A DNA stretch of 44,111 nucleotides from Phycicoccus flavus (GTDB lineage Bacteria; Actinomycetota; Actinomycetes; Actinomycetales; Dermatophilaceae). Location of the stretch: positions 1-44,111 of the forward strand of contig NZ_SAYU02000034.1 of assembly GCF_004025965.2 (NCBI RefSeq). The letters run 5' to 3'. Shown piece after piece: positions 3,581 through 15,027 of the stretch. How positions within the stretch are numbered: the stretch's first letter is position 1; the number at the start of each line of letters is the position of its first letter. The translations under genes and the position numbers were made by a program. The notes under the pieces were generated by a model. It had not been told where the DNA came from. It ran no database searches and saw nothing but the letters and a program-made list of their open reading frames with translations.

Positions 3581-4512
3581 GGCGTTCCTCTCTGAAGCGA
3601 GTACGGATGGGGGAGGTCGCGGCCCAGGCGTCGACGGCGGGAGGACGCCACGACGTGCAGGACGATCCCGAACGTCAGGAGCACCGACCCGAGCGCGCAG
3701 ACGGCGAACCCAAGCAGCCCGGAGGGCACACCGAGGACCGGCGTGCCGTAGAAGTCGCCGAAGTCCGGCGGCCCCGCCGAAGGCGACCCCAGCCGGTCGC
3801 CGATCCGCGCCATCGTCCGCAGGATGGCGTAGGCGAACATCCCGAACCCGACGGCGCTGATGACGAGACCGGCCCACACCAGGGATCGCGCCCTGGTCCG
3901 GGTGGCGGCGATCTCGCGGAGGAGGCTCTCGCGCTCCTGCCGGACGTGGGCGACGTAGCTGATGTGCTGGTCCCGACCGACGTTGCTGATGACCCCGGCG
4001 CTCTGCTCCCGCAGGTCAAACCGGGCACCGCCACCGGGCGCGCGCCCCGGTGGACGGATTCTTGCTGCGGGCGCTGCAGCCGCTGCGGACGCGGCGACGG
4101 CCGGGAACGTCCGGGTATGCGCGGAGGACCCGACCTGGAACACCATCTGCACCTCTCCGAACTGCACGACGTCGCCGGCGGTGAGCGGAGTCGCGGCGTC
4201 TGCCGGGTCGCCGTTGACGGTCGTGCCCGTCGTCGAGCCGAGGTCCTCGACGACCACTCCGGACGTCATCCGCCGGATCCTCGCGTGCGTGCGGCTGACG
4301 TACGGGTCGTCGAGCCGCAGGTCGGCGGAGTCGCCCCGTCCCACGAGCAGCCCGGCACTTGACACGACGACCCGGCGCCCGCGCAGCCGCTCCGGCGTAC
4401 GGAAGACCAGGCACGGGTCGTCCAGATCCGTCCCTCGGACAGATGTCGGGTGGTCCACGACGATCACGTCCCTCGACGACGACCGGGAGGGCACCGAGTG
4501 TGCCCTGTTCAC
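3577..4512 (-). CDS. FHA-domain protein with two transmembrane helices
   Basis: A protein of 311 residues starting at a GTG (4512). A forkhead-associated domain spans about residues 52-127 and is well formed: G-R-G at 58-60, S-R-T-H at 73-76 and G-S-T-T-G-T-T-V-N-G at 92-101. These are the residues that bind phosphothreonine. An Ala/Pro-rich linker follows, then a motif F-D-L-R-E-Q-S-A-G-V-I-S-N-V at about 165-178 that continues into D-Q-H-I-S. Next come a charged helix and two membrane helices (about 210-231 and 258-289). FHA domains read Ser/Thr-kinase phosphorylation, so this is probably a membrane-linked signalling adaptor. It forms a two-gene operon with the downstream small protein. The kinase partner is not in the window. 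Confidence 0.85.
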   Translation of the reverse strand: MNRAHSVPSRSSSRDVIVVDHPTSVRGTDLDDPCLVFRTPERLRGRRVVVSSAGLLVGRGDSADLRLDDPYVSRTHARIRRMTSGVVVEDLGSTTGTTVNGDPADAATPLTAGDVVQFGEVQMVFQVGSSAHTRTFPAVAASAAAAAPAARIRPPGRAPGGGARFDLREQSAGVISNVGRDQHISYVAHVRQERESLLREIAATRTRARSLVWAGLVISAVGFGMFAYAILRTMARIGDRLGSPSAGPPDFGDFYGTPVLGVPSGLLGFAVCALGSVLLTFGIVLHVVASSRRRRLGRDLPHPYSLQRGTP

Positions 4513-4681
4513 CGCAGGAGGGTCGACATCGTCCCGCTGATACCGACGTCGCGTCCATGGCTCGATCGGGCCGTGGAGGGGACCGCCTCGTCAGGATCGT
4601 GACTTTCGAGATCTCTGCCGGTTGCCACGTTCTTCTCGACCGCGACGTCCTGTGCCGCGACGCTCCTGTGGACGTTGCGGA

Positions 4682-4706
4682 CGGAGAGCACAGGATTCGA
4701 ACTGTC
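4682..4706 (-). other. tRNA 3'-end-like remnant, candidate left attachment site
   Basis: Read on the minus strand, the segment looks like a T-arm (box B TTCGAAT) followed by a 7-base acceptor-like GCTCTCC and a discriminator G, with no matching remainder of a tRNA upstream. The T-stem is imperfect (one base missing on one side). CAGGATTCGAAC at 4691-4702 is identical to 14965-14976 inside tRNA-Arg. Integrases often recombine in tRNA 3' ends, leaving such a fragment. The acceptor sequence, however, differs from that tRNA-Arg, so the assignment is tentative. Confidence 0.4.
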
Positions 4707-4824
4707 TGCTGCGGCGTGTCGAGGGCGTGTCTGGCAGAGCCGGATTCGCGCGAGTATCCTTGCAGCACAGCGTGGTTGGTGGTGGACAGACGTGGACACA
4801 GATGGTCACGGATGCCCTCCGCTA

Positions 4825-4842
4825 TTGCACGTATGTTGCACG
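4825..4842 (+). repeat. 18-bp TTGCACG tandem motif, copy 1 (candidate integrase arm site)
   Basis: The sequence is TTGCACGTATGTTGCACG, itself two direct TTGCACG units 11 bases apart, ending 14 bases before the integrase ATG. Two further copies (14837-14854 inverted, 14890-14907 direct) differ only in the two central bases. Placement just inside both island ends suggests arm-type binding sites for the integrase or excisionase. This copy could also allow Int to repress its own gene. Confidence 0.65.
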
Positions 4843-4856
4843 GAAGGGAACGCAGC

Positions 4857-6014
4857 ATGGTCACGAGACGTCCTGGGCGGCGCGGTTTCGGCGCCATCCG
4901 GAAGCTGCCGTCCAAGCGGTTCCAGGCCAGCTACCTCGGCCCGGACCTCGACCGGCACGTCGCCCTGAAGACCTTCGAGACGCGGATCGACGCCGAGGGC
5001 TGGCTTGCCGGCGAGCGCCGGCTCGTCGACTCCGGCGAGTGGCTCAGCCCGCTCGCACGGGAGGCTCGGAAGCGGTCGGCGCCGACGCTCGAGGACTACG
5101 CCCCGGAGGCGCTCCTCAGCCGGCGGGTGCGGGGTGAGCCGCTCCGGCCGCTCACGCTGAAGCTCTACAACGGACTGCTCGAGCGGCTCATCTACCCGAC
5201 GTTCGGGGACGTGCAACTGCGGGCGGTCAAGCCGGTCGACGTCGTGCGCTGGCACTCCAACATCGACCCACAGCTGCGCACCAGCCGTGCGCAGGCCTAT
5301 GCCCTGCTCCGGTCGTTGTTCGCGCAGGCGATCCAGGAGGGTGTCCTCGTCGGGGACAACCCGTGCCGGATCCGCGGCGCCAGTGCCACGCGGCGCGAGC
5401 GGGCCATCGAACCGCTCTCCGTCGGCCAGCTCGAGCTCCTCGTCCTCCAGACCCCCGAACGGCTGCGTGCCGCCGTGCTCATCGCCGCGTGGTGCGGGCT
5501 GCGCTTCGGTGAGGTGTTCGAACTGCGCCGGGGTGACCTCGACCTCGACGCGGCCATCGTCCACGTCCGCCGCGCCGTCGTCCGCGTCGACGGCGCCGAG
5601 GTCGTCGGCCGTCCGAAGTCCGACGCCGGCATCCGCAAGGTCGCCATCCCACCCCACGTGCTCCCGGCGCTGCAGGAGCACTTGGACCAGCATGTCGGCC
5701 GCGCGAACCACGCCTTGCTCTTCGCGACCCGCTCCGGTCTGCACTGGACCCACGGCAACTTCTACAAGGCCGCCTGGGTGCCGGCGCGGGAGGCCATCGG
5801 GATGCCGAACCTCCGATTCCACGACCTCCGCCACACCTCAGCGGTCCTCGCGGCTCAGACGGGCGCGACCCTCGCCGAGCTCATGGCCCGTCTCGGCCAC
5901 AGCACTTCCGTCGCGGCGCTGCGCTACCAGCACGCAGCGCAGGGGAGGGACGCGGTCATCGCGGAGGCCCTGTCCGGCATGGCCGCTCGTCACGCCTCTC
6001 AGGGTTCGTCGTAG
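4857..6014 (+). CDS. Tyrosine recombinase / phage-type integrase
   Basis: A site-specific recombinase of 385 residues. The N-terminal part (1-70) is small and basic and fits an arm-DNA-binding domain. A SAM-like core-binding domain covers about 75-175. The catalytic domain follows, with R216 (C-G-L-R-F-G-E), K254, H322-x-x-R325 (H-D-L-R-H-T), H348 (L-G-H-S-T) and the nucleophile Y357. The full set of catalytic residues is intact, so the enzyme should be active. I chose the ATG at 4857 because GGAAGGGAA lies just upstream; the frame is open further upstream without good starts. It sits at the left end of the island and reads inwards, and the excisionase-type gene follows 80 bases later. Confidence 0.93.
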   Translation: MVTRRPGRRGFGAIRKLPSKRFQASYLGPDLDRHVALKTFETRIDAEGWLAGERRLVDSGEWLSPLAREARKRSAPTLEDYAPEALLSRRVRGEPLRPLTLKLYNGLLERLIYPTFGDVQLRAVKPVDVVRWHSNIDPQLRTSRAQAYALLRSLFAQAIQEGVLVGDNPCRIRGASATRRERAIEPLSVGQLELLVLQTPERLRAAVLIAAWCGLRFGEVFELRRGDLDLDAAIVHVRRAVVRVDGAEVVGRPKSDAGIRKVAIPPHVLPALQEHLDQHVGRANHALLFATRSGLHWTHGNFYKAAWVPAREAIGMPNLRFHDLRHTSAVLAAQTGATLAELMARLGHSTSVAALRYQHAAQGRDAVIAEALSGMAARHASQGSS

Positions 6015-6096
6015 GACTCCCCGTGTGCCTTCAGCGAGCCGAGTGCCGCCACGTGTCCACCCAGGGGGTCTCGCGCCCCTTTAGGAGCTGAAAAAG

Positions 6097-6312
6097 GTGC
6101 ACATCACGACGACAACCGCACCACGCAAGTACGAGTCGCTCGCTCACGCCGCCGACCGCACCGGCGTGAGCGTCAAAACGCTTCGCCGACGGATCGCCTG
6201 CGGTCAGCTCGCTGCCTACCGCACGGGCCGGCTCATCCGTCTGAACCCGGCGGACGTGGACCGACTCCTCAAGCGCATGCCCACCGCAGGGGTACCGATG
6301 TCGATGAAGTGA
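6097..6312 (+). CDS. Excisionase-type helix-turn-helix protein
   Basis: A 71-residue protein starting with GTG at 6097 behind an AGGAG site. Residues 10-60 match the small MerR-like HTH (HTH_17/AlpA/Xis type): A-A-D-R-T-G-V-S-V-K-T-L-R-R-R-I as the helix-turn-helix, then A-Y-R-T-G-R-L-I-R-L as the wing. Such proteins bend DNA next to attachment sites and steer the integrase toward excision. Its position right after the integrase fits that role exactly. It might also act as a transcriptional regulator of the island. Confidence 0.85.
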   Translation: MHITTTTAPRKYESLAHAADRTGVSVKTLRRRIACGQLAAYRTGRLIRLNPADVDRLLKRMPTAGVPMSMK

Positions 6313-6663
6313 CGCGCGGACTGGTCTCACTCTCGACCAGCCCCCGCGGTGCGGTCGGGCTGGCAGGAGCTCCCTGAGGTAACCATCGAGGTGGCGCTCG
6401 TCTAAGCTCTAGCCCGTCACCCACAACCTACGGAGTCATGCACCGCCAAAATCGGTTGCTGAGAGCCCCTCTGCTGACCTCCGACGACGCCTAGGAAGGC
6501 TAGTGGCCTCCAGCGATTGCTCCGTCGTCGATGTGACCCCGTGTGCCCGCCCTTCTCGGTGGCCGAGTAGCAGGATTGCGATCGCGGGGGCTGTAGGACC
6601 CCAAATGCGAGTGTCCTGAGGAAGTTCCGGGCCACTGTCGGGGTCGCACAGTAGTGTGACGGC
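6313..6663. other. Gene-free stretch between excisionase and GNAT gene
   Basis: These 351 bases show no believable ORF on either strand. A short hairpin CTGGTC/GACCAG (6321-6326 with 6335-6340), directly after the excisionase stop, could weakly terminate its transcript. From about 6400 on, base composition falls below that of the flanking core genome and stays low through the cargo genes. A promoter for the GNAT operon is expected near 6620-6655, but I cannot point to clear hexamers. Confidence 0.4.
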
Positions 6664-7146
6664 ATGTTCACTCAGAGGGTCGCTACGCCGCCGGAGGTGC
6701 GCGACATGGTTGGATCCGAGGCCACTGAAGTGATGCGCCTCCTAAGCGAAAGCATCGGGTCTCTCTACCCGGAGGGCGAGGCTTGGCTGCGTAAGAGGCT
6801 CCGAGATGTCTCTGACGGGAAGGCTCTCTGTAAGGTCGTCAGAACTCACGACGCGCTCTCCGGGGTTGCAATCGTGACACCCAAGAGAAGCAGCGCCGTC
6901 AAACTAAGCACACTCTTTGTGGCTGAAGACTCTCGAGGCCAGGGTCTCGGATCCGCCCTTCTAGATGACGTGCTTATTGACCTCGAAGTGGCTGGAGTGA
7001 ACGAGGTCTACGTTACGGTGGCGCATCACCTGAGCGACACGTTGGGCAGGGTTCTCTTGCCGCGCGGCTTCGTGCGAGTCGCAACGGAACTGAATCGGTA
7101 CGGGACAGGCCGGCATGAGGCCGTGTTTACGCGCCTGGCTCCATGA
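6664..7146 (+). CDS. GNAT-family N-acetyltransferase
   Basis: A 160-residue acetyltransferase of the GNAT fold. The acetyl-CoA pyrophosphate-binding motif A is visible as L-F-V-A-E-D-S-R-G-Q-G-L-G-S-A-L-L, with R-G-Q-G-L-G at residues 91-96. A preceding beta strand (about 80-87) and a C-terminal L-P-R-G-F-V-R-V strand complete the domain. The acyl acceptor is unknown. The stop overlaps the start of the ASCH-type gene by four bases (ATGA), so both are made together. Codon use is far less GC-biased than in flanking chromosomal genes, in line with horizontal acquisition. Confidence 0.85.
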   Translation: MFTQRVATPPEVRDMVGSEATEVMRLLSESIGSLYPEGEAWLRKRLRDVSDGKALCKVVRTHDALSGVAIVTPKRSSAVKLSTLFVAEDSRGQGLGSALLDDVLIDLEVAGVNEVYVTVAHHLSDTLGRVLLPRGFVRVATELNRYGTGRHEAVFTRLAP

Positions 7147-7520
7147 CTGCGCCCAACAAACTGTTATTCTCCATACGCACACGGCACGCTGAGCGGATTT
7201 ATAGCGCCGAGAAAGTGCATGAGTTTCGCCGCGTCGTCGTGAAGGTTGCCATTCCAAGTGTCTTGTATATCTACGAGACTGCACCTGTTTCCAAGGTGAC
7301 TGGTTTGGCAAAAGTCACCGACGTCCTCTTTGGCTCCCCCTCCGAGCTTCTTCGTTTCGAGCACGATCCTGAAGAGCGGCAATACCTCTCAAAATATTTG
7401 GCGGGGGCTTCTCGCGCGAGCGCCCTGCACCTCACAGATGCCGCAAGATTCGATGAGCCCCTTGCCTTAAGTCATTTGGGACTGGCCCGTCCTCCACAGT
7501 CGTACGTAAGGCTTTCGTAA
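7143..7520 (+). CDS. ASCH/PUA-like domain protein
   Basis: A protein of 125 residues. The N-terminal half reads L-L-F-S-I-R-T-R-H-A-E-R-I-Y-S-A-E-K-V-H-E-F-R-R, with two strands after it. This is the signature of ASCH-type beta-barrels (related to PUA), where the K..E-F-R-R segment lines the RNA- or nucleotide-binding cleft. ASCH proteins bind RNA or modified nucleosides, and some are nucleases or deamidases. The gene uses TTA and ATA codons, unusual in a high-GC actinobacterium. It overlaps the GNAT gene upstream and is four bases from the membrane-protein gene downstream, so all three form one operon. Confidence 0.7.
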   Translation: MTAPNKLLFSIRTRHAERIYSAEKVHEFRRVVVKVAIPSVLYIYETAPVSKVTGLAKVTDVLFGSPSELLRFEHDPEERQYLSKYLAGASRASALHLTDAARFDEPLALSHLGLARPPQSYVRLS

Positions 7521-7524
7521 TCCT

Positions 7525-8670
7525 GTGGGCTATTTTTCTATTCTCAGTGAGACGCCTGGGGCGGGTCCTCAAGTCCGCCGTGCGCATGTGAATTTGTGGT
7601 CCCTGCCAAGTCTGGTCCCGGGTCGTCGGCTCTTTTATTTCGACGTCGGAGTAGAGATTCTTGCGGGATCGGAGGCTGTCACAAGCCTCCAGATGATGCT
7701 TCCCTTTCGTGTTGAGGAAGGGCCTTGGCCGGATGGCAGCAAGGTCGCTCAGGACCTCTACGAGTCGTTAACGACCTCAGATACGGCGGAGCTCATCTTT
7801 GGGGGCCCCGTAGGACATCAGACTAGGGCTGGCCATCATTACCTCCAGATCGGGGACTATCCAAATGAATTGAGGCTCACTCGCGTCGACGTGTCAAGTG
7901 TCAAGCGAGTTGACGCGTACACATCGCGGGCCGACTCGTCTCTCTACAAGTTTAACCTCGTGTCCCCCATCAGTCCTGGAGAGCAAGGGTACTTTCGAAT
8001 GCGCTGGCGGGTCTTCGGCGCCTATCCGCTTTGGCGATGGAAGAGAATTAGTGGGGGAGCACGGATGGACCTCCGAATCTCTGACGTGCGCGAAAGTCGC
8101 TATGCCAGTGTTGATCGCTCACTTCGAGACAGAATCCTCGAGATCGAGGAGGTAAACGTCTTCTTGATGGCCTCTCCCAAACTGCAACTCGTCGCGCACA
8201 GTCCGGAGTTTCGGTACCTCCGTATCCTCGAACCTGGAGCATGGACAACGTATCTCAAGGGGGCTCACCGCTTCGGAGGTGGGCGTGGACTGTTGGTCTA
8301 TTACTGGAGGTATCCATCCAAGCAACCCACCAATGGTGGTGCGGTTAGGCGCGTCAATATGAACAATCCCTATCGAGTGTTCCTCGATTTCAATCGTGCT
8401 GCATCGGCCACTTGGTGGGTGCAGATTGTTCGCGTGATGGGTGGCGTGGCCCTTGCGCTCATTGCACTGAAGGGTCTAGACGCCTCGCGCCCGTGGGAGT
8501 GGGATTTCTCGAGCTTGTCATGGAAGAGTATCTTGGCCATCTTGGGGGTGCCCTCCGTGCTCGCGGGTGTGTCTCTGGTGGAGAAGATGAGGACCGCAGT
8601 GGCCGATAGGTTTCTGCGACCCCGTGGGTTGTTCAGGCGTCTTGAGCGCAAGATCTTGAAGAGTGGGTAG
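7525..8670 (+). CDS. Unknown protein with two C-terminal membrane helices
   Basis: A protein of 381 residues with a GTG start at 7525, four bases after the ASCH-gene stop. I do not recognise the family. Residues 1-290 look like a soluble, mostly beta-rich domain with many aromatic residues (several W, Y and F) and no catalytic signature I can name. Two hydrophobic helices follow at about 298-316 and 334-352, then a basic tail (R-F-L-R-P-R-G-L-F-R-R-L-E-R-K). A soluble sensor domain plus a short two-helix membrane module resembles the architecture of membrane-acting effectors in defence operons, but that is inference. TTA codons and low GC match its neighbours. Confidence 0.75.
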   Translation: MGYFSILSETPGAGPQVRRAHVNLWSLPSLVPGRRLFYFDVGVEILAGSEAVTSLQMMLPFRVEEGPWPDGSKVAQDLYESLTTSDTAELIFGGPVGHQTRAGHHYLQIGDYPNELRLTRVDVSSVKRVDAYTSRADSSLYKFNLVSPISPGEQGYFRMRWRVFGAYPLWRWKRISGGARMDLRISDVRESRYASVDRSLRDRILEIEEVNVFLMASPKLQLVAHSPEFRYLRILEPGAWTTYLKGAHRFGGGRGLLVYYWRYPSKQPTNGGAVRRVNMNNPYRVFLDFNRAASATWWVQIVRVMGGVALALIALKGLDASRPWEWDFSSLSWKSILAILGVPSVLAGVSLVEKMRTAVADRFLRPRGLFRRLERKILKSG

Positions 8671-8848
8671 GGCGTCGAGGATGGTGCGCCAGCGCAGCTC
8701 GCAGTCGCATATGGGAAGGACACGACCCCCGATTTAAGCGCGCGTCCGAGCGAGTCGCCCAGTGCCGACGTAACATGCAGCAACGGCCAGGCGGGAAGGG
8801 GCACCCAGGGCCGCACTCACATCCTTCGAGAGCGCCTCGGGAGTGGAC

Positions 8849-9805
8849 ATGGGCGCTGTGATCGAAGAAGTCACCTTGGATGACCTGCTCCGGTCCGTCG
8901 TCGAGTTCGTGCTCGATCAAGGTGAAAGGACCCTCCCGACGAAGGGTCCTGCCCTAGACACTTGGGCTGCGTCCCTCCGGCTCACGAACCCCCGCGCTCG
9001 ATTGAGTCGTACCGAAGGAAGGGGTAGGCTCTTTAGCGCGCTGGGTGAACTTTGCTGGTATCTCTCCGGATCCAACGACACGGATCACATCGCCCATTAC
9101 ATCCGCGCCTATCGAAAGTGCGACGAAGCAGGGAAGGTCCATGGCGGATACGGGCCGCGACTATTCGACGCGGATGGGTCCGGCCAAGTGGACTACGTCA
9201 TCAAGGCCCTCAGGGCGAACCCTTGGACGCGGAAGGCCGTGATCCAGCTCTTCGACCGTTCTGACGTTGCCGCTCCTCATGAGGATGTGCCATGCACCTG
9301 CACTCTCCAGTTTCTTATCCGGGAGGGGCGCCTGCATCTAATTACCTACATGCGCTCCAACGACGCGTGGCTCGGGCTGCCGCACGACATCTTCTGTTTC
9401 ACCATGCTTCAAGAGTTGGTGGCCGTCTCAACCGGCTACCCCTTGGGTGAGTATCAGCACTTCGTGGGGAGCCTTCACCTGTACGAAGCCAACTTCAGCG
9501 AAGCGGAGCACTTCATGGGTGAGGGATGGCAATCCACCTTCCATGAGATGGCCCCGATGCCGGAGCAAGATCCGTGGAGCTCCATCGAGACCCTCCTGGA
9601 CCTTGAAAGGGATATCCGCGAAGGGGCTACTCTCACGGCGGCGGACGTGGAGCAACTGGATGACTACTGGGCGGACCTCGCAAGGATCTTGGCAATCCAC
9701 GCCAGGGCGGCAGTGAAGGACCTAGCGTCCATAGAGGAACTGCGCTCGCAGCTGCGTACTCGGACTTTTGACCTTTTCGTCGACGACCGGCTTGAACGAC
9801 TTTAG
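8849..9805 (+). CDS. Thymidylate-synthase-superfamily enzyme (candidate pyrimidine hydroxymethylase)
   Basis: About 318 residues; I prefer the ATG at 8849 with CGGGAG upstream, and a GTG two codons earlier is possible. It has the thymidylate synthase fold signatures: catalytic Cys in D-V-P-C-T-C-T-L-Q-F (about 149), the phosphate-binding R-S-N-D (about 169-172) in M-R-S-N-D-A-W-L-G-L-P-H-D, and H-L-Y-E-A-N (about 210) matching the H-x-Y motif. In classical ThyA the G-L-P-F-N motif carries the Asn that selects dUMP. Here it is G-L-P-H-D, as in (d)CMP hydroxymethylases. It may therefore use cytidine nucleotides and install a hydroxymethyl group. It leads a three-gene operon with glycosylase-like proteins, so a role in modified-base metabolism is likely. 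Confidence 0.8.
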   Translation: MGAVIEEVTLDDLLRSVVEFVLDQGERTLPTKGPALDTWAASLRLTNPRARLSRTEGRGRLFSALGELCWYLSGSNDTDHIAHYIRAYRKCDEAGKVHGGYGPRLFDADGSGQVDYVIKALRANPWTRKAVIQLFDRSDVAAPHEDVPCTCTLQFLIREGRLHLITYMRSNDAWLGLPHDIFCFTMLQELVAVSTGYPLGEYQHFVGSLHLYEANFSEAEHFMGEGWQSTFHEMAPMPEQDPWSSIETLLDLERDIREGATLTAADVEQLDDYWADLARILAIHARAAVKDLASIEELRSQLRTRTFDLFVDDRLERL

Positions 9806-9816
9806 GAGCGAGACTT

Positions 9817-10608
9817 TTGTACTCGACCATGACAACTCTCATTGACCGACTTGAGAGCGGGGAGATATCGCAAGTGTTGGACTGGGGATGTCCAGTGCCC
9901 TTCTTCGGCGACTACTCGTCGGCCTCCGTCGCCACGGTTGGCATCAATCCGAGCAATCGTGAGTTCGTCAATGTGTCTGGTGCAGAGCTGTCTGACAGTC
10001 AACGGCGACTTCCAACTTTGAGCTCTCTTGGAAGAAGTTCCTGGGCGGAAGTCAGCGGCGAGCAGCTTGTAGAGATTGTCAATGCCTGCAGGCTCTACTT
10101 CAGGGCCAACCCGTACGATCGCTGGTTTCAGGTGCTCGAAAGACTATTGTCCGGAACGGCCACTTTCTATGGCACGAATCCAAGTGCCTGCCACCTCGAT
10201 TTAATTCCCTATGCGACCGAGGGAAAGTGGGGAAACTTGCCTGCGAAGGACCAGCGCGCTTTGCTCAACGGGTCTCGGGACGCATTGGGTTTAATTCTTC
10301 GAGACTCCGGAATCCGCATGCTAATCCTTAACGGGGCATCCGTGGTTCGCGAGTTCGATCGCCTCCTCGACCAACCGTTAACGGCGAAGGAAATGGAGGG
10401 TTGGGCGCTCCCGCGTAGCTCGGGTTCCGACATTCCGGGTTACGCATACACCGGAACTATCACTGAACTCGGTGGCGTGGAGCTAGCCGAGTCGGTGCGG
10501 GTATTCGGCTACAACCACAACCTTCAGAGCAGCTTCGGCGTAACCGCCGAGGTCGTCCGGAACATCTCTGTATGGCTCTGCGCAAAAATTGATCGGGCTC
10601 AATTATGA
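9817..10608 (+). CDS. Uracil-DNA-glycosylase-superfamily-like protein
   Basis: A protein of 263 residues. The TTG at 9817 is preferred because AGGAG ends eight bases upstream, overlapping the stop of the previous gene; an ATG lies at 9829. Motifs resemble the UDG fold: V-A-T-V-G-I-N-P-S-N-R-E-F (about 38-50, the water-activating/base-pocket loop), C-H-L-D-L-I-P-Y-A-T (about 125-133), L-I-L-N-G-A-S-V (about 169-176) and G-Y-N-H-N-L-Q-S-S-F (about 231-240, corresponding to the H-P-S-P loop). I do not know a characterised member. The motifs suggest base recognition or excision, perhaps of a modified pyrimidine made by the upstream enzyme. TTA codons are present. Its stop overlaps the next start. 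Confidence 0.6.
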   Translation: MYSTMTTLIDRLESGEISQVLDWGCPVPFFGDYSSASVATVGINPSNREFVNVSGAELSDSQRRLPTLSSLGRSSWAEVSGEQLVEIVNACRLYFRANPYDRWFQVLERLLSGTATFYGTNPSACHLDLIPYATEGKWGNLPAKDQRALLNGSRDALGLILRDSGIRMLILNGASVVREFDRLLDQPLTAKEMEGWALPRSSGSDIPGYAYTGTITELGGVELAESVRVFGYNHNLQSSFGVTAEVVRNISVWLCAKIDRAQL

Positions 10609-11540
10609 AGCCGGCCGACAGAGAGGAAGGCGAACGCCTCTCAGCGGCGCTTAGGGAGCTAAGGCGGGCACTTCCGATGCCAGGGATATCACATCCAAAG
10701 CGGCTTGAGGTTCTCGTCGAGCAAATCATCGAAAGTCTCCGTCGGAACGAATACATTCAACGCCTGAGGGGTCGCGACCTCCCATCCTCATCGGCGGACC
10801 CGAACTCACCTACCTTCGATCCGCTGATGGCAGCTATCCGCCACGCGAAGGCAGGAGCCGTTGATGATGCCTGCTGGATGGTCTTTCTCTACGTGCATTT
10901 TGGAAAACACCGCACGGGTGGTTGGCGCTACGCGAGCAACGTCTTTGGAAAACTCGGTCAAGGCGGAGCGTGGGATTGGGCGGCGATCTCGCGAGACGTG
11001 CCCGCCTTCAGGAACTGGCTAGATCGGAACCAGGTCGAGCTGCGACGACGCGACATTCCCGGTGGCTTCGGCAACCACAGGAAGTACGAGAGCCTTGCTG
11101 GCTGGTCACCAGCTGGTACCGGCGAAGTCGTGGCCTCGTATGTTGCACTGATCCTCGGCCGTGGGGGTCATGCAGCATTGCTGGCCAGTCTCAAGAGCGC
11201 CAGAACGCCAGAGGAGGCCTTCGAGGCGCTCTATCAAGAACTGCGCCGGGTGCATCGGTTCGGCAGGACGGCGGCCTTCGATTACTCCATGCTCATCTCG
11301 AAGTTGGCAATCGCTGAGGTTCGACCCGGACACTCATACCTTGAGGGAGCTACGGGGCCCCTGAGTGGCGCGAGGGCTCTCTTCGGCACCGATGCCCACG
11401 GTCATCAAAGGTCGGCGAAAGAACTTCGACCTCACGTAGCACGACTCCAGGAGGCCCTCGGCGTGAGCTTCGACGTGGTTGAGGATGCACTCTGCAACTG
11501 GCAGAAGAGCCCTGGCTCCTTCAAGCCATTTCGAGGCTAG
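10605..11540 (+). CDS. Helical protein resembling thymine-hypermodification pyrophosphorylases (aGPT-Pplase-like)
   Basis: A protein of 311 residues whose ATG overlaps the UDG-like stop by four bases. It is largely helical with two conserved-looking blocks: F-G-K-H-R-T-G-G-W-R-Y-A-S-N-V-F-G-K-L-G (about 99-118, with W-D-W following) and G-G-F-G-N-H-R-K-Y-E-S-L (about 153-164). This pattern recalls the alpha-glutamyl/putrescinyl-thymine pyrophosphorylase families, which phages use to build hypermodified thymines and which have a HhH-glycosylase-like fold. The assignment is from memory of the motif and is moderate. An alternative is a DNA glycosylase-like protein of unknown specificity. It ends 19 bases past the stop of the convergent ImmA gene, with overlapping 3' ends. 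Confidence 0.55.
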   Translation: MKPADREEGERLSAALRELRRALPMPGISHPKRLEVLVEQIIESLRRNEYIQRLRGRDLPSSSADPNSPTFDPLMAAIRHAKAGAVDDACWMVFLYVHFGKHRTGGWRYASNVFGKLGQGGAWDWAAISRDVPAFRNWLDRNQVELRRRDIPGGFGNHRKYESLAGWSPAGTGEVVASYVALILGRGGHAALLASLKSARTPEEAFEALYQELRRVHRFGRTAAFDYSMLISKLAIAEVRPGHSYLEGATGPLSGARALFGTDAHGHQRSAKELRPHVARLQEALGVSFDVVEDALCNWQKSPGSFKPFRG

Positions 11541-12618
11541 TCCCGTTCCACCGGAATCGTCGCTTAAGGTAGTTCATCTCGTGGAACCCTAGGCGCCCCG
11601 AGAACTGGAGCTGGCCGACGACAACGCCCGGCGAGACGCCAACTTCATGCGCTAGGCGGATAACATCTCTCGCTGCCAGCTTGCGCGTCGGGACCGCAGA
11701 ACGCAGGTGCGGGGGGAACAGGGTCTCTCCCGCAAATCGGTCCGCCTCGAGCTCTACTCCGTTTATCGCTTCGATATCCTGATGACTGAAGTCATCAACG
11801 TAGATTTCCCCAGCACCGTGCAGGAGGACGTGCCCCACCTCATGGAAGAACGTGAACCAGAAATGATCATCTGCGAGGTAGCGACCACTAAGAGCGATCA
11901 ACGGCGTTCCTCCGTCCAAGAAGCGTGCAACACCGCTGGCCGGACAACCTGACGGGGAACGCACCACCGCCACCAGCACGCCAGCGGCTCCACATAGTTC
12001 CGTCAACTTGGGGATGAACTCAGCTGGATCCTTGATTCTCGTCAACGCACGCAGCTGACTCAGCGATGATCGAAGGGCCCCCGGACTCCATCGCGCTGCA
12101 GAGAGAGTCCGAGACTGAATCTCTGCTTGCCTGAGCCAGGCAGCGACAGCAACTTCGCTTGTGCTGGCCTTGGTCGAGGTCCTGAACTTGGCTGAGGACA
12201 GCATCCGCCCATAGGAGCCGTTCCACGAAGCCACGTCTGGGACGTCGAAGTACTGCAAGCAGGCGTCAATCCGGGCGATCCAGTCGTCGGTCTTCGGAAG
12301 CCAACCAAAAGACCGCATGTCCTTCGTTGGCAGCGACCTCGCCCAGGCGTCAGCGGCCAACCGCGACTGATCCTCGTGGTACTGGGCCTCGCGCGTCATC
12401 CAGAACTGGGCGTTCCCCCCGAGCACGCCGGCCAGCACTCGTGCCGTCTCCAGATCAATGCCCTCGGCCCCGTCCAGCAGACGGGACACCCGTTCCTCAG
12501 CCCAGCCGAGGCCGTCCGCCAAGTCCTCCGACGTCAGTTCACGTTCGTCAAGAACGTCACGGATCGTGTCACCTGGAGGCGAGGCCCAGCGGGGTGCGAA
12601 GCTAGATGGCGCGAGCAT
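11521..12618 (-). CDS. XRE-family antitoxin fused to ImmA/IrrE-type metallopeptidase
   Basis: A protein of 365 residues. An N-terminal Cro/C1-type HTH (about 17-75) has the HigA-like sequence D-L-A-D-G-L-G-W-A-E-E-R-V-S-R-L-L. After a helical linker, the C-terminal domain carries the zinc-peptidase motif F-F-H-E-V-G-H (H259, E260, H263) and the third-ligand helix V-E-L-E-A-D-R-F-A (about 288-295). This architecture is found in antitoxins of HigB-type systems and in phage/ICE repressors cleaved on stress. The start (ATG at 12618) lies 17 bases inside the toxin gene, so both form one operon read leftwards. Its 3' end overlaps the convergent helical protein gene. Confidence 0.9.
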   Translation of the reverse strand: MLAPSSFAPRWASPPGDTIRDVLDERELTSEDLADGLGWAEERVSRLLDGAEGIDLETARVLAGVLGGNAQFWMTREAQYHEDQSRLAADAWARSLPTKDMRSFGWLPKTDDWIARIDACLQYFDVPDVASWNGSYGRMLSSAKFRTSTKASTSEVAVAAWLRQAEIQSRTLSAARWSPGALRSSLSQLRALTRIKDPAEFIPKLTELCGAAGVLVAVVRSPSGCPASGVARFLDGGTPLIALSGRYLADDHFWFTFFHEVGHVLLHGAGEIYVDDFSHQDIEAINGVELEADRFAGETLFPPHLRSAVPTRKLAARDVIRLAHEVGVSPGVVVGQLQFSGRLGFHEMNYLKRRFRWNGTSLEMA

Positions 12619-12943
12619 GAGCCCCGGTCCTCTCTATGCCAACGATCTTCAAGCGTCGAACGCGATCCCAATCTATCTCCCCGTCCTGACGCACTGGACA
12701 GGTCTGGTGATTGGCCACGCCGATGAGGATGTAGTCCGACGCGAGGCGGATCTCCACTTGCGGATCGCCGGAAGTGGCCAGAGACGGTGAACCCGCCACC
12801 AGCGAAAGTGGTGAATCCGCAGCTCGGATGTCAGCAACTCGGCGGATCAGGCTCGCAACCACCAAGGGCGGGTAGTGCTTCGCCGCCTCCATCGGCTCTT
12901 CGCAAGCGGTTCGAAGCCGTCGAGTCTGGAAGGCGAGTTCCAC
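12602..12943 (-). CDS. HigB/RelE-like toxin
   Basis: A protein of 113 residues starting at the GTG at 12943, behind GGGAGG; the frame extends to an ATG at 12994, but that version lacks a ribosome-binding site. The sequence starts V-E-L-A-F-Q-T-R-R-L-R-T-A-C-E, the typical opening of HigB/RelE-superfamily killer proteins. It continues with R-V-A-D-I-R-A-A-D-S-P-L-S-L, then a beta-rich C-terminus ending in I-V-G-I-E. Such toxins are ribosome-dependent mRNA endonucleases. The antitoxin with HTH and ImmA domain overlaps downstream. The toxin-first order is normal for HigBA. The pair probably stabilises the island. Confidence 0.8.
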   Translation of the reverse strand: MELAFQTRRLRTACEEPMEAAKHYPPLVVASLIRRVADIRAADSPLSLVAGSPSLATSGDPQVEIRLASDYILIGVANHQTCPVRQDGEIDWDRVRRLKIVGIERTGAHARAI

Positions 12944-13150
12944 GGCACTCCCTCCCGCTGCCGACACTGAGCCATCCGCGCCCACCTGGAACAACTACGA
13001 CTACAGCCCCGGACTCATCACCGGCCTCACCGTTCTGGAGAGGGTACCTCTTCGTGAGGACTTCCTTACTGGCTCAAGTGCAGCTCCGCCGGGAGAGGTC
13101 ACCACGGCCCTTAGCGGGCGCAGAGGCGCAGGCGCGGTGGGTCGTTCTAC

Positions 13151-14952: not shown

Positions 14953-15027
14953 TGGTGCCCCCGGCAGGATTCGAACCTGCGCTCCCGCCTCCGGAGGGCG
15001 GTGCTCTATCCCCTGAGCTACGGGGGC
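14953..15027 (-). tRNA. tRNA-Arg (anticodon CCG)
   Basis: A full cloverleaf on the minus strand: acceptor GCCCCCG (15027-15021) pairing with CGGGGGC, D-arm GCTC/GAGC, anticodon stem CCGCC/GGCGG with loop CTCCGGA (anticodon CCG, reading CGG), T-arm GCAGG-TTCGAAT-CCTGC and discriminator A. The 3' CCA is encoded (TGG at 14953-14955). The 3' end faces the genomic island, and its T-arm shares CAGGATTCGAAC with the region upstream of the integrase, which makes it the probable integration target. argS lies some 500 bases to the right. Confidence 0.95.
14965..14976. other. Candidate right attachment core in tRNA-Arg
   Basis: The 12-mer CAGGATTCGAAC is identical to 4691-4702 upstream of the integrase, in direct orientation. 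It lies in the T-arm, a usual target of tyrosine recombinases. Because box B is conserved among tRNAs, the identity alone is modest evidence. The arm-like motifs inside both copies strengthen it. Confidence 0.4.

Follow-up and report, generated by a model that had tools for sequence, protein, structure and literature searches.

A stretch of 44,111 nucleotides from Phycicoccus flavus (assembly GCF_004025965.2, contig NZ_SAYU02000034.1, positions 1–44,111 of the forward strand, hereafter the window) raises the question of what enzymes related to those of phage DNA-base hypermodification are doing together in a bacterial island. A first-pass annotation had marked positions 8849–11540 as a three-gene operon built from parts of the phage thymine pathway. 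The three genes are real, but this interval ends exactly where a convergent pair on the minus strand begins, and the pair, a HigB-like toxin and a partner joining a helix-turn-helix (HTH) to an ImmA/IrrE domain, accompanies the first and third genes in 102 of 109 loci, so that the three-gene boundary does not hold. The unit is real and wider than three genes, and its layout is that of a toxin–antitoxin (TA) module in which enzymes replace the usual third part. Their chemistry is predicted to act on deoxycytidine, and the three genes with the toxin pair look like a mobile, perhaps anti-viral, cassette with these members:

8843..9805, plus strand: gene 1, thymidylate synthase (TS)-fold enzyme, predicted dCMP 5-hydroxymethylase (PF00303 4.9e-25; MilA 4.7e-40; residues C151, D182, S172, R130)
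9817..10608, plus strand: gene 2, uracil-DNA glycosylase (UDG)-superfamily protein with a Brig3-like 5-hydroxymethylcytosine (5hmC) pocket, optional member (N44 P45 S46 E49 / Y100 W103 F104 / H126 D128)
10605..11540, plus strand: gene 3, ADDT, of the aGPT-Pplase clade 3 / amino acid:DNA transferase family (PF18746 3.7e-90, PF18724 2.4e-62, alignment)
11521..12618, minus strand: HigA-like HTH fused to an ImmA/IrrE (M78) metallopeptidase domain with HExxH (PF06114 6.2e-11; PD-Lambda-2_B 7.6e-30)
12602..12994, minus strand: predicted HigB/RelE toxin fold protein (fold prediction; real start probably near 12943)

The unit and its conservation

The three plus-strand open reading frames (ORFs) encode 320, 263 and 311 amino acids. 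Gene 1 starts with GTG at 8843 (alternative ATG at 8849) and gene 2 with TTG (later ATG at 9829); the gap between them is 11 bases and not the 12 first given, while the 4-base overlap of genes 2 and 3 stands, and the motifs quoted at first pass (GINPS, NHNLQSS, FGKHRTGGW and GGFGNHRKYES) are all present. The first convergent gene overlaps the end of the ADDT gene by 20 bases. Its product also matches the HigA profile TIGR02607 below the cut-off (2.6e-07), and HExxH is found in all 103 full-length ImmA-family proteins, three short ones being set aside. Fold prediction gives the second product a HigB/RelE toxin fold; the best match of its profile in the PDB is a Killer (HigB) protein at an E-value of 0.58, insignificant alone, and it has no match among the PADLOC profiles. 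The start near 12943 is proposed because the conserved part begins near residue 18.

Conservation was assessed with profiles built from the window proteins and run against the ORFs in 115 records, these being 114 fetched loci and the window; the genome loci are the best 80 of 140 ADDT matches, with 60 weaker ones outside the sample. Without L001, which duplicates the window, and the five loci with distant ADDT proteins (L003–L007), 109 loci with a strong ADDT remain; they include the window and a few near-copies and represent 103 distinct ADDT C-termini. Among these the HTH–ImmA gene (106/109) and the HigB-like gene (104/109) are about as conserved with ADDT as TS is (107/109), and all four are present together in 102. 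The co-occurrence expected at first pass is also borne out, with relatives of TS, glycosylase and ADDT standing in the same order in 32 other loci (L009 and L012 being near-copies of L008 and L062). The association of the three genes is not due to chance, given the PF18746 score of 302.6 bits, the shared order in 32 loci and the presence of TS in 107 of 109.

Seventy of the 102 complete loci have TS and ADDT facing ImmA and HigB, and 30, the window among them, have a glycosylase gene between TS and ADDT; the other two are L063, with the glycosylase after ADDT, and L057, whose toxin pair is on the same strand. The ADDT and ImmA genes of the 101 convergent loci overlap in 40, lie 0–20 bp apart in 53 and 21–60 bp apart in three, and are further apart in five. 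Five of the seven incomplete loci end at a contig edge (L012, L014, L025, L068, L112), which leaves L070, without TS, and L084, without TS and ImmA, as real exceptions. The five loci with distant ADDT relatives contain no TS, glycosylase, ImmA or HigB gene in the 7.9–14 kb covered; two of the five, L141 and L143, lie on contigs that stop 0.4 and 1.3 kb beyond ADDT, so that a toxin pair is poorly excluded there.

The glycosylase is optional, being found in 35 of 102 non-redundant loci, and an obligatory triplet is therefore rejected. The same loci hold MazG1-type (14), MazG2-type (3) and NUDIX (6) genes, DUF4031 genes (19) and one nucleoside deoxyribosyltransferase-like gene, with none of these in 36. 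The DUF4031 gene (PF13223 1.3e-25 in L072) adjoins the unit in L014, L063, L072, L081, L094, L107 and others, shares the locus with a glycosylase in 11 of 19 cases and is in some loci accompanied by a small HTH gene on the opposite strand. The deoxyribosyltransferase-like ORF (L057, Sorangium cellulosum So ce26, 8630–9094, plus strand; PF05014 0.0021, below the cut-off) sits between ADDT and the same-strand HigB–ImmA pair, the sole such layout in the 102 complete loci. An Abi_C gene (PF14355 1.1e-07) lies between ADDT and ImmA in a Hymenobacter locus (L073, 4112–4915, minus strand).

Predicted chemistry of the operon

Gene 1 belongs to the TS fold, as first proposed, and its closest solved relative is the CMP hydroxymethylase MilA, ahead of the best TS at 7.4e-19. 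In TS-type enzymes Asp at this position accompanies cytosine and Asn uracil, while Ala/Lys go with ribose and Ser/Arg with deoxyribose (PMC5175136). The window enzyme has D182 for cytosine, S172 and R130 for deoxyribose, the nucleophile C151 and E69, and in an alignment of 106 members, which counts the window and some near-copies, Asp, Ser, the catalytic Cys and Glu are present throughout, while the Arg position holds Arg in 96 members and Lys in the other 10. The same Asp is found in T4 gp42 and in a Bacteroides phage enzyme annotated as deoxycytidylate hydroxymethyltransferase, and Asn in ThyA, Det7, GG32, BSP38 (annotated as TS) and S218 (annotated as dUMP hydroxymethylase). Gene 1 carries the residues expected of a dCMP hydroxymethylase at these positions and is predicted from them to make 5-hydroxymethyl-dCMP (5hm-dCMP). 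Since Asp replaces the dUMP-type Asn (the E. coli N177 position) in 106 of 106 members, the phage thymine scheme does not carry over, and we reject thymine chemistry for this operon.

Gene 1 has in common with T4 gp42 and MilA the TS fold, the cytosine-type Asp and the catalytic Cys and Glu. It is itself bacterial, has deoxy-type residues unlike MilA and is paired with ADDT and a toxin pair, and its family differs at T4 Ser94, as weighed below. T4 Asp145 has been described as a polar residue peculiar to the T4 enzyme (PMC6400193), and 95 of 106 members have Asp or Glu in its column. The host genome has two further TS-family genes near each other on contig C106 (locus L147, 3459–4379 and 5238–6794, minus strand), both of Asn (uracil) type by eye, the second frame being unusually long.

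Gene 3 belongs to the aGPT/ADDT family by profile, at 302.6 bits for PF18746 (cut-off 25) and 211.1 for PF18724 (cut-off 26.2), both above the curated cut-offs; there was no credible match in the PDB. In this setting it would attach an amino acid or amine to the 5-position of hydroxymethylated deoxycytidine. Searches by tblastn or pattern found nothing at 1e-5 among 50,697 phage records but relatives in 8 plasmid records, the six examined all carrying the unit, and in 21 IMG/VR contigs. Two 8-residue patterns gave the 140 matches in 84,980 species genomes, and the best 80 span eight phyla, with 52 in Pseudomonadota. Spread close to the host is patchy: PF18746 occurs in 7 of 396 genomes of its phylum, two of them strong, and of 58 genomes from the host and its close relatives two have ADDT; the host is included in both counts. 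The 5-hydroxymethyldeoxyuridine (5-hmdU) DNA kinase of PF18723 was not found in the host genome, in a search whose control matched nowhere, and no nucleotide kinase was recognised by eye among neighbour families common to at least three loci.

Gene 2 has a UDG fold by fold comparison, its best match being the S. tokodaii UDG that is likewise best for Brig1; no profile search, whether of Pfam, NCBIfam, PHROGs, PADLOC or the PDB, produced a credible match. Neither of the two conditions named at first pass as refuting its proposal came out against it, and the protein families that it proposed hold, with the UDG fold of gene 2, the aGPT profile of gene 3 and the co-occurrence elsewhere. Nine of the ten Brig3 pocket residues have counterparts in gene 2, judged by their published positions: N50 P51 S52 E55, Y97 W100 F101 and H125 D127 of Brig3 correspond to N44 P45 S46 E49, Y100 W103 F104 and H126 D128. 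These are invariant in 32 family sequences, the pattern occurs in 36 of 37 gene 2 family ORFs and in none of 9245 others, and R200 is a possible counterpart of Brig3 R197. On these residues gene 2 is better read as a 5hmC-type DNA glycosylase than as an installer. Brig1 (PMC11078745) and Brig3 of the Brig3–BapA system (PMC13160076, a preprint) are also UDG-superfamily glycosylases able to defend against hmC phages, and Brig3 alone shields E. coli from 5hmC phages. Brig3 adjoins a glucosyl hydrolase gene, whereas gene 2 shares an operon with ADDT and the predicted 5hm-dCMP maker, and the preprint likens the core of Brig3 to human AAG, as against S. tokodaii UDG for gene 2. A stand-alone gene 2 relative in another actinobacterium (L146, 6656–7423, plus strand, genome G113) has no TS, ADDT, ImmA or HigB in the 14 kb examined.

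How the two halves may work together

Computation supports the gene content, the layout, the folds of gene 2 and the HigB-like protein, and the substrate-determining residues of gene 1. The nearest described relative of the toxin half is PD-lambda-2 of E. coli, an abortive-infection system (PMC9519451) that likewise combines a HigB-like gene, a HigA–peptidase fusion and an accessory part. The window HTH–ImmA protein matches the PD-Lambda-2_B profile; nine window proteins that were scanned gave no other PD-Lambda-2 match, the presence of A and C profiles in the library being unconfirmed. The accessory part of PD-lambda-2 is a P4-antitoxin-like C gene, and here it is the TS–ADDT(–glycosylase) operon on the opposite strand.

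We infer the reaction of ADDT in this setting, the link between the halves, the trigger and the anti-phage outcome, and our preferred reading, given slightly less than an even chance, is that a TA core like that of PD-λ-2 is coupled to enzymes producing and removing a modified deoxycytidine, to the detriment of phages. Four core genes and an optional fifth would form two halves. In the first, the TS-fold enzyme would produce 5hm-dCMP and ADDT would add an amino acid or amine at the 5-position, at the level of the nucleotide or of DNA; in the second, facing it in the A–B arrangement of PD-lambda-2, the HigA–ImmA/IrrE protein would hold the toxin in check. The modified deoxycytidine could be what the second half reads, such that a phage attack disturbing dCMP/dCTP or the modification would switch the ImmA-type protein and let HigB halt growth. 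The optional member may keep 5hmC out of DNA, as the Brig3-like glycosylase would in the window, and in other lineages a NudG-like NUDIX or possibly a MazG-like protein may clear it from the nucleotide pool. A fuller version, which we consider rather unlikely, is a bacterial immune system in which the amino-acid-decorated deoxycytidine would be a licence or alarm signal read by the HigA–ImmA protease and HigB, and interchangeable enzymes, a 5hmC glycosylase acting on DNA and NudG/MazG-like proteins acting on the pool, would guard the host from it.

This interchangeable clean-up is an idea and not a result. Glycosylase (35 loci) and pyrophosphohydrolase-type genes (23 loci) never share a locus, with raw Fisher p-values for exclusion of 0.0016 for MazG1 and 0.07 for NUDIX. 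On an ADDT tree made by a quick method the glycosylase needs nine changes, and a paired test retains two independent pairs on supported branches and nine on the whole tree, for which reason exclusion was rejected as proof of a common role. The NUDIX protein of L047 has its best match to PRK10546 (1.6e-33, below the cut-off). Among the PHROGs, MazG1 matches two strong families of unknown function before a MazG family at 0.13, and both MazG1 and MazG2 are tentatively called MazG-like, the latter by our own reading of its sequence.

Several points weigh against the coupled, anti-phage reading. Sampling the closest ADDT relatives favours likeness to the window. Of the 102 non-redundant loci, 44 have neither a glycosylase nor a pyrophosphohydrolase-type gene, while the exclusion between the two lacks power once corrected for the tree. 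The NUDIX protein of L069 fits PRK08999 better than PRK10546, and the MazG1 label derives from the 4qgp pyrophosphatase at an E-value of 0.026. In gene 1, Ser94 of the T4 enzyme, important for its activity, is Gly in 94 of 106 members. In gene 2, no counterpart could be fixed for Brig3 pocket residue F31 or the intercalating N225 (candidates are F30 and the loop NHNLQSSFGVT, with indecisive spacing), and the distances between pocket blocks differ (47 in Brig3 against 56 residues, and 25 against 23). No phage-pathway kinase that would supply ADDT with an activated substrate was found in the searches described above, and the open-licence literature yielded no experiment on any member of the unit.

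Of the alternatives, the one that survives best, though we think it unlikely, is a mere TA addiction module stabilising islands and plasmids, in which the nucleotide genes regulate toxicity and do not sense phages. The plasmid records and the patchy spread suit it, and the abortive-infection role of PD-lambda-2, its nearest AB pair, argues the other way, as does the placing of aGPT-Pplase among predicted defence domains by DefensePredictor (PMC13092281). Quite unlikely is a scheme of poisoning and excision, in which 5hm-dCMP would enter phage DNA through phage dNMP kinases and be excised by the Brig3-like glycosylase, with HigBA as a second line: the adjoining hydroxymethylase and glycosylase signatures, and protection by Brig3 alone, agree with it, yet 67 of 102 loci have no glycosylase, ADDT is left without a role and the pool-cleaning genes of other lineages would counteract it. 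We regard it as no more likely that host or island DNA is marked with amino-acid-substituted cytosine, the toxin pair serving for addiction or detecting DNA without the mark. The Pfam names of the ADDT family refer to DNA substrates and the cassette appears mobile (plasmids, integrase, possible tRNA border), but a 5hmC glycosylase would act on an intermediate of the host itself and leave unmarked phage cytosine alone, and neither kinase search, with the control limit given above, found a candidate. Hypermodified thymine made by a pathway taken from phages is very improbable, for although the aGPT-Pplase family and a TS fold occur together here, as in Pelagiphages (PMC9599517), the invariant Asp, the failure to find the 5-hmdU kinase under that same limit and the lack of ADDT matches among phage records speak against it.

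Phage thymidine hypermodification, the subject of Iyer 2013 and Lee 2018/2022, reportedly pairs a TS-like hydroxymethylase with an aGPT/ADDT enzyme, as does the window; the substrate is dUMP there and predicted dCMP here, where no DNA kinase was found and a toxin pair is present. If correct, the coupling preferred here would join DNA-base hypermodification enzymes, known mainly from phages, to TA immunity, two usually separate subjects, and the pairing of a dCMP hydroxymethylase with a 5hmC glycosylase in a bacterium would be relevant to the way bacteria distinguish themselves from hmC phages. The DefensePredictor study lists aGPT-Pplase as predicted and untested, and its newly validated defence domains include those of TS and of a 5-hydroxymethyluracil kinase; HTH and UDG are among the abbreviations in the legend to Fig. 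6F for its aGPT-Pplase system (PMC13092281). The present analysis supplies that prediction with a definite set of genes, and predicts that the substrate is dCMP and not dUMP and that the target in DNA is 5hmC. We recognised no description of this gene set in the open-licence literature, and one in Iyer 2013, Burroughs 2015, Lee 2018 or Lee 2022 is possible.

Island setting and neighbouring genes

The island setting proposed at first pass is upheld. GC content is 58–62% in 2-kb windows over 6001–13000, against 69–77% over most of the remaining contig, and two mobility genes lie upstream of the three genes, with a tRNA gene beyond the toxin pair:

4359..6014, plus strand: tyrosine integrase, mobile-island context (PF00589 7.7e-15)
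6097..6312, plus strand: excisionase-like protein, context (TIGR01764 4.1e-10)
14953..15027, minus strand: tRNA-Arg(ccg), possible island border

DNA similarity to congeners starts at the 3′ end of this tRNA gene in 7 of 11 cases (query base 55–56), which suggests that it is the island border; of the other four, two start at base 1, one at base 31 and one at base 72. No clear att repeats were found, and a scan for promoters and terminators gave signal below the shuffled expectation.

Three genes upstream of the operon were rejected as members of the unit, as their profiles matched the window alone among the 115 records. The last, at 7525–8670 (plus strand), encodes a 381-amino-acid protein with hydrophobic stretches near its C-terminus that look membrane-spanning by eye; searches of Pfam, NCBIfam, PHROGs and PADLOC found no credible family for it. 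The others are a GNAT acetyltransferase gene (6664–7146, plus strand) and, overlapping it by 4 bases, a gene for a small protein that we read as ASCH-like (7143–7520, plus strand), and the two match PDC-M11A (3e-11) and PDC-M11B (6.5e-19), a candidate defence pair in PADLOC.
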